DNA from: Comamonadaceae bacterium
GTDB taxonomy: Bacteria > Pseudomonadota > Gammaproteobacteria > Burkholderiales > Burkholderiaceae_C
Reading direction: 5' to 3'
DNA length: 64,000 nt
Assembly: GCA_027490925.1 (NCBI GenBank)
Contig: JAIXXF010000031.1
Location: 1-64,000, forward strand
The position numbers and the translations under genes were made by a program. Below are positions 14,005-19,793 of this stretch, piece by piece. Every line of letters starts with the position of its first letter. Within the stretch, counting starts at the first letter, position 1. The notes beneath the pieces are model-generated. The model was not told where the DNA came from and made no database searches. It worked only from the letters and a program-made list of their open reading frames with translations.

Positions 14005-14472
14005 TCAGAGAGACGACGCGACCGCTTTAGCCACCGGTGTGGATTCGTTTGGCACCGTCGCCAATGGCGGAATCTCAGCGGGTACATCAACTGGCGTTTC
14101 GGCGCCGGGCAGGCCTGGCAAGCCACCCAGGCTGAGGAGGCCGGTCAGGCTGCCCAGCAAACCGGTGACGGTGCCCAGCAGGCCGCCAACCAAACCGCCG
14201 AGGCCACCCAGGCCACCCGCGGGGTCTGAGCCACCGCCCAAAAGGTCACCGCCCAGCAAGCCGCCGAGGCCGCCCAAGGCACCCGTGGCGTCGTCTCCAC
14301 CGCCCAGCAGGCTACCCAGACCTTCGTCGCCGGTCAGGGCGGCCAGCGGTGTGTCTTCCAGCAGCAGTTGGTCGACGGGCAACGCAGACGTCACGGTGGC
14401 GATGGGTTCGGATGCCAGCGCGAGAAAGTCGGCGGCGCCAGTGGCGTTTTCGTTTCGGATGTCGATGGTCAT
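14005..14472 (-). CDS. Small Gly/Leu-rich protein of unknown function
   Basis: A 155-residue protein starting MTIDIRNENATGAADF. Residues about 60-125 are a low-complexity run of LGG/GLGG/LLGG units (for example ALGGLGGLLGGDLLGGG) flanked by a Thr/Ala/Leu-rich N-terminal part and a Pro-rich tail. There is no classical signal peptide. The start is fixed by a good ribosome site, GGGAGAG, before the ATG. It has its own terminator and a candidate promoter, so it is an independent unit lying between the RND pump and tetR. Gly-rich runs like this occur in self-assembling surface proteins and in some bacteriocin precursors; I do not recognise the family. Confidence 0.6.
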   Translation of the reverse strand: MTIDIRNENATGAADFLALASEPIATVTSALPVDQLLLEDTPLAALTGDEGLGSLLGGGDDATGALGGLGGLLGGDLLGGGSDPAGGLGGLGGLVGGLLGTVTGLLGSLTGLLSLGGLPGLPGAETPVDVPAEIPPLATVPNESTPVAKAVASSL

Positions 14473-14545
14473 TTTTCTCTCCCTGTGTTGGTTTAAAAAC
14501 AGACTCGATGGGTCTGGCGCCACAGCGTGTTGATGAGGCCGTTTT

Positions 14546-14573
14546 AGCTTAAGGGTTATTTCGTGACTGACAA
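14546..14573 (-). promoter_or_regulatory. Candidate promoter of the Gly/Leu-rich gene
   Basis: Minus strand TTGTCA (14573-14568) and TAAGCT (14551-14546) with a 16-base spacer, in a locally AT-rich stretch about 75-100 bases before the ATG. Confidence 0.35.
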
Positions 14574-14747
14574 GTGACCCGCAATGAATCAATTGCTATT
14601 CACTTATGACCATCTGTTTCTAAGCCAGCGGGGCGGTGTTTGCGCTGTGGCCGCTGACGCGGTGGGCGCGGTGGCCGTTTCAACCCCGGTGCCGTCCCGC
14701 CAGGGCGCGACGCACGGGCCTCAATGCGGGGCTTGGCGCTCGCCGCG

Positions 14748-17700
14748 TCACACCCGTTTGGCCCAGGCGGCGAGGTCGTCCAGGTAGCAGTACACCACCG
14801 GCACCACCACCAGCGTCAGCAGCGACGACGTGATGACGCCGCCAATCACCGCCTGTCCCATGGGGGCGCGTTGTTCCGAGCCTTCGGTCAGTGCAAAGGC
14901 TAACGGCACCATGCCGAACACCATGGCCAAGGTGGTCATCAAGATCGGGCGCAGCCGCACCTTGGCGGCCAGCAGCAGCGCGTCTTCGCGGCCCAAGCCA
15001 GTGCTGCCCGGCGTGCCGTCGCCTTCGCGCGCGCGGATGGCAAAGTCCACCAGCAAGATCGCGTTCTTGGTGACCAGGCCCATCAGCATCACCACGCCGA
15101 TCACCGAGAACATCGACAGCGTGGAGCCGAACATCAACAGCGCCAGCACCACGCCAATCAGCGTCAGCGGCAGCGCGGTCATCAGTGCCAGCGGTTGCAA
15201 GAAGCTCTTGAACTGGCTCGCCAAAATCATGTATATGAACACAATGGCCAACACCAAGGCCGAGATGGCGTAGCCAAACGACTCCTGCAAATTTTTGGTG
15301 GAGCCGCCGAACTGGTAGCGGTAACCCGGCGGGAAGTTGATCGTGTCCAGCGCCGCGCGAATGTCGTTGGACACCTCGCCCGCAGACCGATTGGCCACGT
15401 TGCCATTGACCGCCACTTCGCGGTTCAGGTCGCGCCGGTTGATCTGGTTGGCGCCGGTGGATTCCTGGATGCTCGCCACCTGGTTCAACCGCACCGTGCG
15501 CTGGGTGCCGTCGGCCCCGGTCAGGGTGAACGGCAGGCGCTCCAGGTCTTGCGGGGCGTTGCGGGCGTCGGGCGACAAGCGCACCTTGACGTCGTAGGTC
15601 TGGTCGTCGGGGGCGCGCCAGTTGCCCACGGTCTGCCCCGCCACCAGGGTGCGCAGCGCGCTGCCAATCGCGCCCACGCCCAGCCCCACATCGGCTGCGG
15701 CGTCGCGCCGTACCGCCACGTTCAGCGTGGGTTTGTCGGCCTTGATGCTGGAGTCCAAATCCACCAGGCCGGGAATGTTGCGGATCTTCTCGTTCACCAG
15801 CCGGGTGAGACGTTCCAGCTCTTTGAGGTCGGGCCCTTGCAAAGAAAACTCGATCTGCTTTTGCCCGCCCACCGAGTCCAGCAGCCCGACGTGGGTGACG
15901 GTGATGCCCGGCACCTGGCGCAGCCGCTCCCGCAGCACGTTGGACATCTGGTCCACGCTGCGGCTGCGTTGGTCGCGGTCCACCAAACGCACATAGACAC
16001 TGGCGTAGATCTTTCCTTGGGCGTTGCCGGTGTTCACGGTGGCCAGGGTGTACTTGACCTCGGGGAACTCGTGCAGGATGGCGTCCACCTGCCGGGCCTT
16101 GGCCTCGGTGACCTCAATGGACGAACCCACTGGCGTGTAGAAGCTCAGCGACGTTTCAGAAAAGTCCGCCTTGGGCACGAACTCGGTGCCCAGCAAGGGC
16201 ACCATGAACACGCTGGTGACGAACACCGCCAGCGCCATGCCCACCGTGGCCAGCTTGTGCCGCAGCGACCAGCGCAGCAGGGTTTGGTAGCCCTCGGCCA
16301 GTTGCTCGGTGCCACGGTCAAACGCACCGGTCACGCGGCCAATGGTCTTGTCGTACCAGGTCACGGGTGGTCCCTGCTTGCCGTGGGTGTCAATCGCCGG
16401 GTCGTGCCACACGCTGGAGAGCATGGGGTCGAGCGTGAAGCTCACGAACATCGAGATCAGCACCGCCGCCACGATGGTGATGCCGAACTCATGGAAGAAC
16501 TTGCCGATGATCCCGCCCATGAAGCCAATCGGCAAAAACACCGCCACGATCGAGAAGGTGGTGGCCAGCACCGCCAGCCCGATTTCTTGCGTGCCTTCCA
16601 TTGAAGCCACGTAAGGCGACTTGCCCATTTGCACATGCCGCACGATGTTCTCGCGCACCACGATGGCGTCGTCGATCAACAAGCCCACACACAGGCTGAG
16701 TGCCATCAGCGTGATCATGTTCACCGTGAAGCCGAACATATGCATGAACAAGAAGGTGCCCACAATGGCGATAGGCAGCGTGAGACCGGTGATGACAGTG
16801 GAGCGCCACGAGTTGAGGAACAAGAACACGATCAGCACGGTGAGCACCGCGCCTTCAATGAGCGTGCGGCGCACGTTGTCCACCGCCACGCGGATGGGGC
16901 GCGAGCCGTCGCTGATCGGCTCCAGCCGCACACCGGGCGGCAACTGCGGCGCGATGTCGGCAATGGCTTTCTTCAGGCCGTCGGTCACCGCGATGGTGTT
17001 GTCGTCCTGGGACTTTTGCACCTGCAGCACCAGAGTGCGTTGGCCGTTGTAGAGCGCCAGGCTCTCCACCTCTTGCGCGCCGTCGCTCACCCGGGCCACC
17101 TGTTCCAACCGAATGGGCGCGGCCGAGCCGCGTTTGGCCACCACGATGCGGTTGAAGTCCTCGGGCCGCTGCATGCGCGAGACCACCTGCACCACCCGCT
17201 CCTGTTCCAGCGACCGCACCGCACCCACCGGCAGGTCTTGGTTTTCGGTGCGCACCGCGTTGGCCACCTGCTCGGCCGTGACGCCCAGCGCCTCCATGGC
17301 CTGCGGGTTAAGGTAGATGTTGACCTCGCGCTTGGTGCCGCCCACCAGGGTGACGGAGCCCACGCCGCGCACGTTTTCCAACCGCTTCTTCAGCACCTGG
17401 TCGGCCCAGCTGGTGAGTTCCACCGGGGACATGGAAGCAGCCGCCGCAGCGCCGGGCCGCCCCAAGCATGGCGCGGCCCCCTCGGGGGGCAGCGAACCAC
17501 ACGCAGTGGGGAGCGTGGGGGCGTCAGGCAACACCGCCACAGACCAAATCGCCCGGCTCGCCGGATCAAACCGCAGCACACGCGGTTCGTCCACCTCGTC
17601 GCGGAACGTGGGGCGGATGGCGGCAATGCGTTCGCGCACGTCTTCGGCCGCCTTGCGCCCGTCCACCGACAACTGGAACTCCACGATCACCACCGATTGG

Positions 17701-17960
17701 CTCTCGTAGCTGCGCGAGGTCAGCGCGTTGATGCCCGCGATCGCGTTCACGCCTTCTTCCACCTTCTTGGTGACCTCGCTCTCCACGATCTCGGGCGACG
17801 CGCCGGGGTACGACGTGGTGATGACCACCACCGGGAAGTCGATGTTGGGGAACTGGTCCACCTGCAACCGCTGGTAAGAGAACATGCCCAGCACCACCAG
17901 CGCGAGCATCACCATGGTCGCAAAGACCGGGTTCTTGAGACTGACCTGGGTGAACCACAT
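14748..17960 (-). CDS. RND efflux transporter, HAE1 family inner-membrane pump
   Basis: A 1070-residue proton-driven pump with the standard layout: TM1 (ATMVMLALVVLGMFSYQRL), a first periplasmic loop, TM2-6, a second loop and TM8-12. Motifs such as VVITTSYPGASPEIVESEVTKKVE, GLLIDDAIVVRENI and TKNAILLVDFAIRAREG support it. It is longer than usual because about 30 residues (containing ACGSLPPEGAAPCLGRPG) are inserted in the first periplasmic domain just after AVLPDAPT; this is a translated 80-bp repeat. The gene starts 3 bases after the membrane-fusion gene. Substrate is not readable. Confidence 0.95.
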   Translation of the reverse strand: MWFTQVSLKNPVFATMVMLALVVLGMFSYQRLQVDQFPNIDFPVVVITTSYPGASPEIVESEVTKKVEEGVNAIAGINALTSRSYESQSVVIVEFQLSVDGRKAAEDVRERIAAIRPTFRDEVDEPRVLRFDPASRAIWSVAVLPDAPTLPTACGSLPPEGAAPCLGRPGAAAAASMSPVELTSWADQVLKKRLENVRGVGSVTLVGGTKREVNIYLNPQAMEALGVTAEQVANAVRTENQDLPVGAVRSLEQERVVQVVSRMQRPEDFNRIVVAKRGSAAPIRLEQVARVSDGAQEVESLALYNGQRTLVLQVQKSQDDNTIAVTDGLKKAIADIAPQLPPGVRLEPISDGSRPIRVAVDNVRRTLIEGAVLTVLIVFLFLNSWRSTVITGLTLPIAIVGTFLFMHMFGFTVNMITLMALSLCVGLLIDDAIVVRENIVRHVQMGKSPYVASMEGTQEIGLAVLATTFSIVAVFLPIGFMGGIIGKFFHEFGITIVAAVLISMFVSFTLDPMLSSVWHDPAIDTHGKQGPPVTWYDKTIGRVTGAFDRGTEQLAEGYQTLLRWSLRHKLATVGMALAVFVTSVFMVPLLGTEFVPKADFSETSLSFYTPVGSSIEVTEAKARQVDAILHEFPEVKYTLATVNTGNAQGKIYASVYVRLVDRDQRSRSVDQMSNVLRERLRQVPGITVTHVGLLDSVGGQKQIEFSLQGPDLKELERLTRLVNEKIRNIPGLVDLDSSIKADKPTLNVAVRRDAAADVGLGVGAIGSALRTLVAGQTVGNWRAPDDQTYDVKVRLSPDARNAPQDLERLPFTLTGADGTQRTVRLNQVASIQESTGANQINRRDLNREVAVNGNVANRSAGEVSNDIRAALDTINFPPGYRYQFGGSTKNLQESFGYAISALVLAIVFIYMILASQFKSFLQPLALMTALPLTLIGVVLALLMFGSTLSMFSVIGVVMLMGLVTKNAILLVDFAIRAREGDGTPGSTGLGREDALLLAAKVRLRPILMTTLAMVFGMVPLAFALTEGSEQRAPMGQAVIGGVITSSLLTLVVVPVVYCYLDDLAAWAKRV
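17443..17522. repeat. 80-bp repeat A, translated inside the RND pump gene
   Basis: 79 of 80 bases match repeat B (18007-18086); the one difference is T versus A in CCAAGCATGG / CCAAGCAAGG. It contains two hairpin-forming parts, GCCCCC-TC-GGGGGC and CCACACGC...GCGTGGGG. I recognise this as a repeat common between genes in Comamonadaceae; here it lies inside a reading frame. Confidence 0.85.
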
Positions 17961-17963
17961 GGC

Positions 17964-19205
17964 TCAGCGTGCCGGGGCAGGGTTGGATGCGGCGTCAACA
18001 GAAGACGCCGCAGCGCCGGGCCGCCCCAAGCAAGGCGCGGCCCCCTCGGGGGGCAGCGAACCACACGCAGTGGGGAGCGTGGGGGCCAGTTTCACGGGGG
18101 TGCCCTCCCGCAGCGCGCCCACCGAGCCGCGCACCACCTGCGTGCCTGTGGGCAGGCCGGTCACAGCCACCCAGCGTTCGCCCGCGTGCTCGCCGCTTTG
18201 GCCGGTGCCCACGGGCAGATGAACGATCTGGCTGTTGTTCACCGCCTGCACATAAGGCGCGGGTTTGTCGGTGCGCACCGCCGTCAACGGCACGGCCAAA
18301 GCGGTGACCGCGCCGGTGCCCAACACGCCTTGTAAGAAGGTGCCCTGGCGCAACCCCTCGGTGGTGGGCAGGGCCAAATACATCACCACGCTGCGGCTGC
18401 CCGCTTGCACGGTGGGGTTGATGCGCGCCACCTTGGCGGCCAGGGTGCGCGGGGCGCGGGCGCTGTCCGCGTCCAGTCGCAGCACAGCGCTTTGGCCCAC
18501 CCGCACGTCCAGCGCGTCGCTGGCGCTCAGCGTGGCCTCCAGTTCCAGCTGGCGCAAATCCACAATTTCAATGACGCGGGCGTCCACGCCCACCCGTTCA
18601 CCGGGCTGTACCAGCCGCTGTGCCACCAGGCCCGCCATGGGCGCCACCAGCACGCTGTCTTGCACCGCTTTGTTGGCAATGTCCACCGCCGCCAGCGCCG
18701 CTTGGTAGGTGGCCTGCGCGCCGTTCAGGTTGGCTTGGGACGTGTCCAGCGCCGTGGCAGAAATAAAGCCCTGCTTCACCAGCGCCTGGTTGTTGTCCAG
18801 CTGCCGCTGGGCAATGGCCACCTGTGCCTTGGCCGCGTCCGCCTGGTCTTGCGCCTGCCGCTGCCGCGCGCGGAACTCGGTCGGCTCAATGCGCGCCACC
18901 ACCTGGCCCGCCTTCACCGCGTCCCCCTCCCGCACCACCAGCGCCTGCACCTCGCCCGCCACGCGGGCCTTCACCACGGCCGAGTTCACCGCCCGCACCG
19001 TGCCCGAAATGGGCACACCCACCTGCAAGGCCTGCTCGACAGCGGCCACCAGATCCGCTGGGGTGAGTTCCACCACGGTTTGGGCTTGGGTGTTGGCCGC
19101 CAAGGCGGCCTGCTGGGCTTTGCGGCCGGAGAGGGCGCGGAAGACGCCTGCGGCTAAGAGGGCCAAGACCAGGGCGGCAATGGCCCATTTCCACCAGCGT
19201 TTCAT
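17964..19205 (-). CDS. RND efflux periplasmic adaptor (membrane fusion protein)
   Basis: A 413-residue adaptor. An N-terminal membrane anchor (WWKWAIAALVLALLAAGVF), a lipoyl half-motif (GTVRAVNSAVVKARVAGEVQ), a coiled-coil hairpin (about 100-190) and beta-barrel domain (LVAPMAGLVAQRLVQPGERV) are visible. The start MKRWWKW has an AAGGAA ribosome site; the frame is open 43 codons further upstream without one. The C-terminus after GTPVKLAPT is not native: it is the translated repeat B, read in the same frame as in the pump, followed by SSVDAASNPAPAR. It precedes the RND pump with a 3-base gap. Confidence 0.93.
   Translation of the reverse strand: MKRWWKWAIAALVLALLAAGVFRALSGRKAQQAALAANTQAQTVVELTPADLVAAVEQALQVGVPISGTVRAVNSAVVKARVAGEVQALVVREGDAVKAGQVVARIEPTEFRARQRQAQDQADAAKAQVAIAQRQLDNNQALVKQGFISATALDTSQANLNGAQATYQAALAAVDIANKAVQDSVLVAPMAGLVAQRLVQPGERVGVDARVIEIVDLRQLELEATLSASDALDVRVGQSAVLRLDADSARAPRTLAAKVARINPTVQAGSRSVVMYLALPTTEGLRQGTFLQGVLGTGAVTALAVPLTAVRTDKPAPYVQAVNNSQIVHLPVGTGQSGEHAGERWVAVTGLPTGTQVVRGSVGALREGTPVKLAPTLPTACGSLPPEGAAPCLGRPGAAASSVDAASNPAPAR
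18007..18086. repeat. 80-bp repeat B, translated as the C-terminus of the membrane-fusion protein
   Basis: Second copy of the repeat at 17443-17522, in the same orientation, 564 bases away. It encodes the same peptide in the same frame, and both copies are preceded in the protein by APT or PT followed by LPTACGS. Confidence 0.85.
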
Positions 19206-19469
19206 CGATGATTCCTTGGTTGCTGGAGCGTCTGAGAGACGTGATGTCGAAAACACATGGCGAGCGGACGACCGACACCAATCGAGTGAAGCGTCATTGT
19301 TGACACCTAATGTGATACCGCCCGGCCAGAACAATGAAATTGGTCATTGAAATAAAAAACGTGGCCGTAATCGATCAACGAAAACGCAAGAAACCGGATA
19401 GAGCTGAGCCGTCGTTCTGCTGCGATAAAGGGGACACCAGATTGTCAAGCCGCGGCGGCATTGACGGAT

Positions 19470-19793
19470 ATGCTGTGTCACATGGTCGATATTGCTTTTT
19501 TCAACGCTGTTGTTTATCGAATCACTTATCCGAACGGAAAAATCTACGTTGGTCAGGACCGAACCAACAGCATCAACTACTTCGGAAGTGCTAGTTCGGA
19601 GGTCATTGCGGCGGACTTTTCAGCCGAGCAGCGAAAAAGTTTCACGATCACCCGCGACATTCTTTGGGGGTCGCCGTCTGCAACGAGGGCTGAGATAAAT
19701 CGGGTCGAACTCCACTTCATCACAACTTTGCGTGCCAACGACCCGGCTGTGGGTTACAACCACTGGCCACCTTTCCCTGCTGCGGAGTGTTGA
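19470..19793 (+). CDS. Small GIY-YIG nuclease family protein
   Basis: A protein of about 107 residues with VVYRITYPNGKIYVGQDRT, the two-strand GIY-YIG core, then INYFGSAS, a FTITRDILW segment and a C-terminal VELHFITTLRANDPAVGYN. Catalytic-type residues of the family (Tyr pair, Arg in QDRT region, Glu in VELHF) are present. Orphan single-domain members of this sort occur sporadically in Comamonadaceae. The start is uncertain: ATG at 19470 or 19482, neither with a strong ribosome site. Local GC is clearly lower than that of its neighbours, which suggests transfer. It is divergent from the pump operon. Confidence 0.7.
   Translation: MLCHMVDIAFFNAVVYRITYPNGKIYVGQDRTNSINYFGSASSEVIAADFSAEQRKSFTITRDILWGSPSATRAEINRVELHFITTLRANDPAVGYNHWPPFPAAEC

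Follow-up and report, generated by a model that had tools for sequence, protein, structure and literature searches.

A dispersed repeat, most likely the Beta-proteobacterial repeat element, is read in frame in the pump and adaptor genes of one RND operon

Dispersed repeats that are read in frame as part of bacterial genes are already known as such. Ogata et al. are said to have described the palindromic elements of Rickettsia, dispersed repeats that lie in frame in many genes. Here we analyse a short repeat in the pump and adaptor genes of a resistance-nodulation-division (RND) operon of a Comamonadaceae bacterium, contained in a stretch of 64,000 nt (contig JAIXXF010000031.1; the window), and compare it with three published repeat families, as presented in the parts of those papers used here. 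Hot et al. (2011; PMC3110155) describe the Beta-proteobacterial repeat element (BRE), which in Bordetella measures 75-91 bp, with partial copies of about 40-60 bp. The BRE is reported from chromosomes only and is mostly intergenic, with some copies entirely within open reading frames (ORFs); tandem copies have zero or few nucleotides between them, and copies adjoin lexA in Bordetella pertussis, Bordetella bronchiseptica and Bordetella parapertussis. Its count was highest in Polaromonas sp. JS666, at 29 copies. The intragenic GTAG/CGTC repetitive extragenic palindromes (REPs) of Di Nocera et al. (2013; PMC3733652) lie in frame, many of them coding for 20-30 residues; uvrA is one of several repair genes that hold them, and in two Xanthomonas they occupy roughly the same position in recB. 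Inserts in loops or linkers may, according to the authors, be neutral; the authors also speculate that repair proteins could be altered. The enterobacterial RU-1/2/3 of Delihas (2007; PMC2759123) are small mobile sequences of 103-168 bp resembling miniature inverted-repeat transposable elements (MITEs); they are intergenic, hold open frames and also occur within genes, one of which is labelled HlyD. Literature searches on in-frame repeats in Comamonadaceae or Variovorax returned nothing closer than these three papers.

The two genes of the operon in the window, and the repeat copies within them, are the following.

14748-17960, minus strand: RND permease (pump) gene of the ACR_tran family, 1070 aa; PF00873 ACR_tran, E 1.9e-269
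17964-19205, minus strand: RND periplasmic adaptor gene, 413 aa; TIGR01730 RND_mfp, E 3.9e-57
17440-17526, plus strand: repeat copy 1, within the pump gene and antisense to it; core 17450-17521, nhmmer 60.9 bits
18003-18089, plus strand: repeat copy 2, near the 3' end of the adaptor gene and antisense to it; core 18014-18085, 60.8 bits
17433-17522, minus strand: inserted segment of the pump, residues 147-176 (APTLPTACGSLPPEGAAPCLGRPGAAAAAS), a low-confidence loop in the model
18006-18086, minus strand: repeat-derived adaptor tail, about residues 374-400; the native end ..NPAPAR and the stop come after it

The copies form a direct repeat (17436-17522 and 18000-18086) with 97% identity over 87 nt. 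Between 17443-17522 and 18007-18086, which lie 564 nt apart, 79 of 80 positions are identical, and the sole base difference, CCA versus CCT (Pro), is synonymous. When up to 3 mismatches were allowed, a 40-nt core pattern matched the window twice and 100 shuffles not at all, so the repeat pair is not due to chance. The same peptide, APTLPTACGSLPPEGAAPCLGRPGAA, is read from the pump copy and from the adaptor copy, and the reading frame stays open across the repeat in both genes. On the pump, the PF00873 match is a single stretch (residues 4-1060) running across the insert; the adaptor retains its native ..PAR end and stop right before the pump ATG, as does PCRC01, the closest relative found. The central observation of the original prediction, two nearly identical in-frame copies in the pump and the adaptor of one RND operon, was thus borne out.

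The adaptor and the pump N-terminus of PCRC01 are 89% and 88% identical to those of the window. Its pump loop has 8 residues versus 31 in the window (D146 counted), and its adaptor tail is without the repeat segment. Since PCRC01 and other relatives are without the insert, the peptide is not part of the normal family sequence; uninserted relatives proved to be the rule, and the original prediction withstood the refutation that it had named for itself. Loop length was measured in 132 pumps whose loop DNA was distinct: it ranged from 6 to 150 nt, with 18 or 21 nt in 75 of them, and was divisible by three in every case. The adaptor tail was compared over 110 loci, a set that takes in the window and some duplicates as well as two loci cut by contig ends. 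These tails had 0-45 residues, most of them being rich in Ala and Pro, and only that of the window had an in-frame copy. At the Polaromonas locus L064 a copy lies in the gap between the adaptor and pump genes. Five Ramlibacter adaptor C-termini (L043, L052, L063, L073 and L082) read PHPSPLPQAGEGA, TPALPQRGRE or similar, which looks like yet another repeat; in L043 and L082 the DNA is visibly palindromic.

The repeat consists of a 72-nt core with short tails, partial matches being met as well, and is dispersed. The window's genome holds six copies, the two of the window and four at 72-84% identity. We found the repeat in 22 of 24 genomes of the window's family and in none of the 16 genomes from sixteen other families searched alongside; across the order, where scoring was limited to 4 candidates in each genome, 22 of 200 genomes carried it, 17 of them from other families. 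PCRC01 (G001 in our set) has at least 44 matches, Polaromonas JS666 at least 43 (E <= 0.01, 40 of 85 candidates scored, a threshold other than that of Hot et al.) and seven further genomes at least 40-54, all lower bounds since 40 candidates were scored in each of these nine repeat-rich genomes; one genome had none. The 6 copies in the 2.76 Mb of the window's genome contrast with the at least 44 in the 3.3 Mb of PCRC01. Tandem arrays with periods of about 78-92 nt occur in G002, G008, G079, G080, G158, G188 and G208. In a plasmid collection seven records matched the repeat, most of them above 0.5 Mb, and all seven best places fell outside any listed gene, the gene table being incomplete. An Rfam scan of 14500-19500 gave two matches far under the cut-off, neither on the repeats. 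By its size, tandem habit, hosts and placement, rather than by compared letters, the repeat is most likely the BRE, and it is referred to by this name below.

The high identity of the two window copies (97-99%, at a distance of 564 nt, against 72-84% for the other four of the genome) would also fit a single insertion that gene conversion or some local copying then carried from one gene to the other. Copies elsewhere in the genus are equally close (98% in PCRC01), however, so two separate arrivals fit too; moreover the match stops at the element boundary, and the adaptor tails of some relatives hold another palindromic sequence. Local copying is therefore a possibility that we hold to be doubtful, and each window copy would be an insertion in its own right. 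An artefact of assembly is hardly credible: the genome is a draft of 47 contigs and repeats may confuse assembly, but both frames are kept, and the same type of insertion occurs in the named isolates Variovorax ginsengisoli and Polaromonas eurypsychrophila. The element is also shorter than usual sequencing reads.

Placement relative to genes was counted in stretches around the listed copies of five genomes, comprising 96 among the best-scoring copies or tandem clusters (three clusters at stretch edges were dropped). Twelve of the 96 lay in frame within called genes (G000 1/6, G001 3/21, G002 2/24, G080 6/27, G079 0/18); the caller missed the window's adaptor copy, which when added by hand gives 13. 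In control runs it recovered 436 of 540 stretches in genes of its own picking and, with a 1-nt deletion, flagged none of 540. The host genes code for an M20 peptidase, biotin carboxylase, UvrA, PriA, cyclopropane-fatty-acid synthase, a P-type ATPase and a histidine kinase, the last carrying a tandem pair of copies. Family matches flank or span the insert in biotin carboxylase, cyclopropane-fatty-acid synthase, UvrA, PriA and a copper-type ATPase. Three PCRC01 genes with a copy differ from their counterparts without one in the window's genome by a net 75, 69 and 153 nt, all multiples of 3. Insertion into coding sequence in the manner of the Rickettsia elements, that is in frame, open to translation and dispersed through the genome, was thus confirmed. 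The P-type ATPase gene, which includes a heavy-metal domain (L305, 1-2334, Polaromonas), holds two in-frame copies, and the copies in uvrA and priA (L274 and L300) agree with the published intragenic REPs in repair genes.

Comparison of the copies revealed a fold. For 35 diverse copies RNAalifold gave 12 pairs, 2 of them with two-sided changes. A fuller structure with a closing helix, a C5/G5 hairpin, a short stem and a variable hairpin was written by hand from the same sequences, an origin that favours it; 89.7% of its cells pair versus 85.5% after shuffling, 8 of 18 pairs have a two-sided change versus 4.3, and 26 cells have one versus 8.1, values that none of 500 shuffles reached. Slid versions of the structure drop to 44-67% pairing. 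In the variable hairpin alone 71.7% of cells pair, and two-sided changes can be seen directly, for example in L179 and L180. The closing helix joins a C-rich with a G-rich segment close to the element ends. As far as aligned copies can tell, the conserved feature of the element is most likely its nucleic-acid fold, not the peptide. Section 14 and the other passages of the BRE paper used here do not mention a fold (PMC3110155). A conserved fold would offer a handle on the element's way of moving.

Inside pumps the BRE was confined to one site. Every one of the nine in-pump BREs found among the 132 pumps lies in the same loop; the remaining pump coding sequence searched, 328,545 nt with full coverage of 69 pumps, held none. 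Six of the nine come from the window and 80 named loci; the other three (L237, L246 and L247), partial and weak matches of 17-25 bits, come from 25 genomes chosen mostly for long loops. They are spread over Polaromonas, Variovorax, the window's genus and other genera and occur in both orientations, which give unrelated peptides. On a quick tree, BRE presence in the loop requires 8 changes; well-supported branches force 7 of these, and the scatter of the label comes close to that of shuffled labels (mean 8.9; 65 of 500 as low). Uninserted pumps adjoin L080, L044, L106 and the window on this tree, and L104 and L115 have one insertion event in common. A second, palindromic repeat, which reads RPELVEG, occupies the same loop in L100, L110 and L241, whose genomes hold 23, 52 and 66 matches to it (E <= 0.1, arms counted singly); the genome of L110 has no BRE match. 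In L240 the loop holds an (NP)n tract. Literature matches to peptide strings of the second repeat amounted to one unrelated paper. The literature searched yielded no case of unrelated repeats coming to occupy a single RND-pump loop several times, nor any account of the BRE fold. Judged from these sequences, the site, not the repeat, is the common factor of the loop insertions. The nine out of nine could also reflect a target preference, the enzyme of the element recognising the DNA of the loop, rather than tolerance. We regard this as rather improbable, as both orientations occur, the loop DNA varies from lineage to lineage, and the same loop also houses a repeat family unrelated to the BRE as well as a simple (NP)n tract.

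In the low-confidence pump model (mean pLDDT, the predicted local distance difference test, 62.8; predicted template modelling score, pTM, 0.41) a predicted strand (137-145) precedes the pump copy and a helix (179-195) follows it, in the sub-domain that we take to be PN2. The first periplasmic domain, where the original prediction had put it, was right in broad terms. The 50 structural matches shown for the model, which were not used for placing the loop against the adaptor, are all RND pumps, and in the match to the solved MdtB the insert is opposite a gap. The adaptor tail was modelled at low confidence, as expected of a flexible tail.

Since the same peptide is present in both genes of one operon and the loop belongs to the porter region, the inserts might be adaptive, the matching segments of pump loop and adaptor tail touching in the periplasm through prolines or their two cysteines and tuning assembly or substrate range. 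Hits on the same loop in several lineages could also mean benefit, and the ratio of non-synonymous to synonymous rates (dN/dS) of the L104/L115 insert, 0.28 with two indels (flanks 0.035 and 0), points the same way. Its proportion of non-synonymous differences (pN), 0.196, is nevertheless well above the 0.012 and 0 of the flanks, and the L246/L247 insert has a dN/dS of 1.19, built on 2.8 synonymous and 8.2 non-synonymous differences, versus 0.055 and 0.14 in the flanks. In this pair constraint on the insert is relaxed; over the two pairs the sequences suggest none visible in one and weak constraint in the other. The adaptors of all eight other BRE-bearing pumps are free of the BRE, both orientations occur with unrelated peptides, and the second repeat family behaves alike in the loop. 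The L106 insert is without any cysteine, and the pair of cysteines is not a general feature. The pump-adaptor contact initially envisaged would thus lose its footing, in view of the BRE-free adaptors, the low-confidence tail and an insert that seems weakly or not constrained, and an adaptive origin appears very unlikely. The inserts are most likely tolerated passengers at permissive sites, not a new machine part, in line with the neutrality that had been allowed for from the start. A functional role is possible, with little support here.

The two window segments most probably arose recently as copies of a dispersed repeat that is short and non-autonomous, occurs in Comamonadaceae and related families, and is tolerated at permissive sites. 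Copies would be spread by some enzyme, presumably by transposition, and would mostly settle between genes. A copy within a gene would survive only if its length keeps the frame, if the frame is free of stops and if the site tolerates 20-30 Pro/Gly/Ala-rich residues; most copies are open in most frames. The pump loop and the adaptor tail would be two such permissive sites, with little consequence for efflux. The 8 changes on the tree, at least 7 of them on well-supported branches, would most simply be separate insertions.

Several observations weigh against this reading. The BRE label is built on common traits, the sequences being set side by side by description only, and no copy was found at 30 lexA loci of the family of G208, which possibly do not include the three Bordetella species. 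The changes on the tree, a quick one, may include losses. The few empty-site pairs showed no target-site duplication, and pairs of occupied and empty sites are not clean insertions, at least 18 nt of the empty site being unaligned. Neither strand of a single copy folds better than shuffled sequence (z 0.37 and -0.01), the RNAalifold covariation term is merely -0.03, and the excess of pair types in the hand-drawn structure (19 versus 15.4; 17 of 500 shuffles as high) is less clear. The L104/L115 ratio below 1 and the few differences behind that of L246/L247 belong here as well. Finally, a link to REP-associated tyrosine transposases (RAYTs) was dropped because none of 16 Y1_Tnp loci from 12 genomes, some of them contig-cut, had a BRE within about 1.5 kb, and because G208 and G188 have repeat copies with the Y1_Tnp gene absent. 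Y1 transposase genes of RAYT-like size are present at L377-L386 and L388, in each of 11 family-type genomes, and G080 has a second one (L376); the 11 genomes searched were family members or sources of Comamonadaceae-type loci with copies.

A further-reaching proposal would make the BRE a coding-tolerant mobile element, freer of stops in six frames than its composition predicts and thereby able to live within genes, and the pump loop a standing trap for active repeats. All six frames are open in 97 of 168 copies, versus a mean of 77.1 (sd 5.8; maximum of 100, 90) for dinucleotide shuffles, in a test that is weak as the copies are related to each other. We consider this proposal unlikely; if true, it would provide a natural series of porter-domain insertions of 20-50 residues that may occasionally alter the pump. 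The loop offers a countable case of non-coding dispersed repeats turning into protein, with about seven or eight events and two unrelated repeat families at one site, and the uninserted neighbouring pumps available for comparison make the question of neutral or useful directly testable. Outside the operon, two tandem 66-bp units, 76% alike, lie at 14183-14314 directly downstream of the pump gene. A plus-strand ORF of 110 aa (19461-19793), reading VYRITYPNGKIYVGQD.., lies between the adaptor gene and an acyl-CoA dehydrogenase-like gene; we presume that it resembles a GIY-YIG-type protein.

Like the Rickettsia palindromic elements, the window repeat is dispersed and in frame in many unrelated genes. 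It differs, in a comparison by description and not by letters, in living in different bacteria and being mostly intergenic; the Rickettsia elements are palindromic and hairpin-forming, whereas a single copy of the window repeat folds like its shuffles (z 0.37 and -0.01) and a covarying multi-helix fold emerges across copies. The Rickettsia comparison, which the original prediction had singled out, has lost its special place, as the traits match those of the betaproteobacterial repeat, and in-frame insertion has been published for other repeat families too (PMC3733652, PMC2759123). With the REPs the window repeat shares the in-frame position in genes, uvrA included; REPs, in the parts of the paper used here, are single palindromes of 20-40 bp, in contrast to a multi-helix repeat of 72-90 nt from another bacterial group. 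In the REP/RAYT system repeats flank a Y1 transposase gene, unlike the 0 of 16 Y1_Tnp loci here. RU-1/2/3, which belong to enterobacteria, are likewise intergenic with open frames and also found in genes. Of MITE traits, the window repeat has a closing helix near its ends that pairs C-rich with G-rich sequence, and it shows no target duplication in the few empty-site pairs.

The likeness is most extensive with the BRE. The 72-nt core with its tails and the tandem periods of 78-92 nt fit the 75-91 bp of the BRE; both form tandem arrays, are mostly intergenic with some copies in genes, and abound in JS666 (at least 43 versus 29 in the paper, at different thresholds). Unlike the BRE as published, which in the parts of the paper used here is confined to chromosomes, the window repeat matches seven plasmid records. 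What goes beyond those parts of the BRE paper is the conserved fold, the identified genes in which copies are read in frame, and a single pump loop that was used repeatedly; of these, the fold and the loop would, in our assessment, be what is new.

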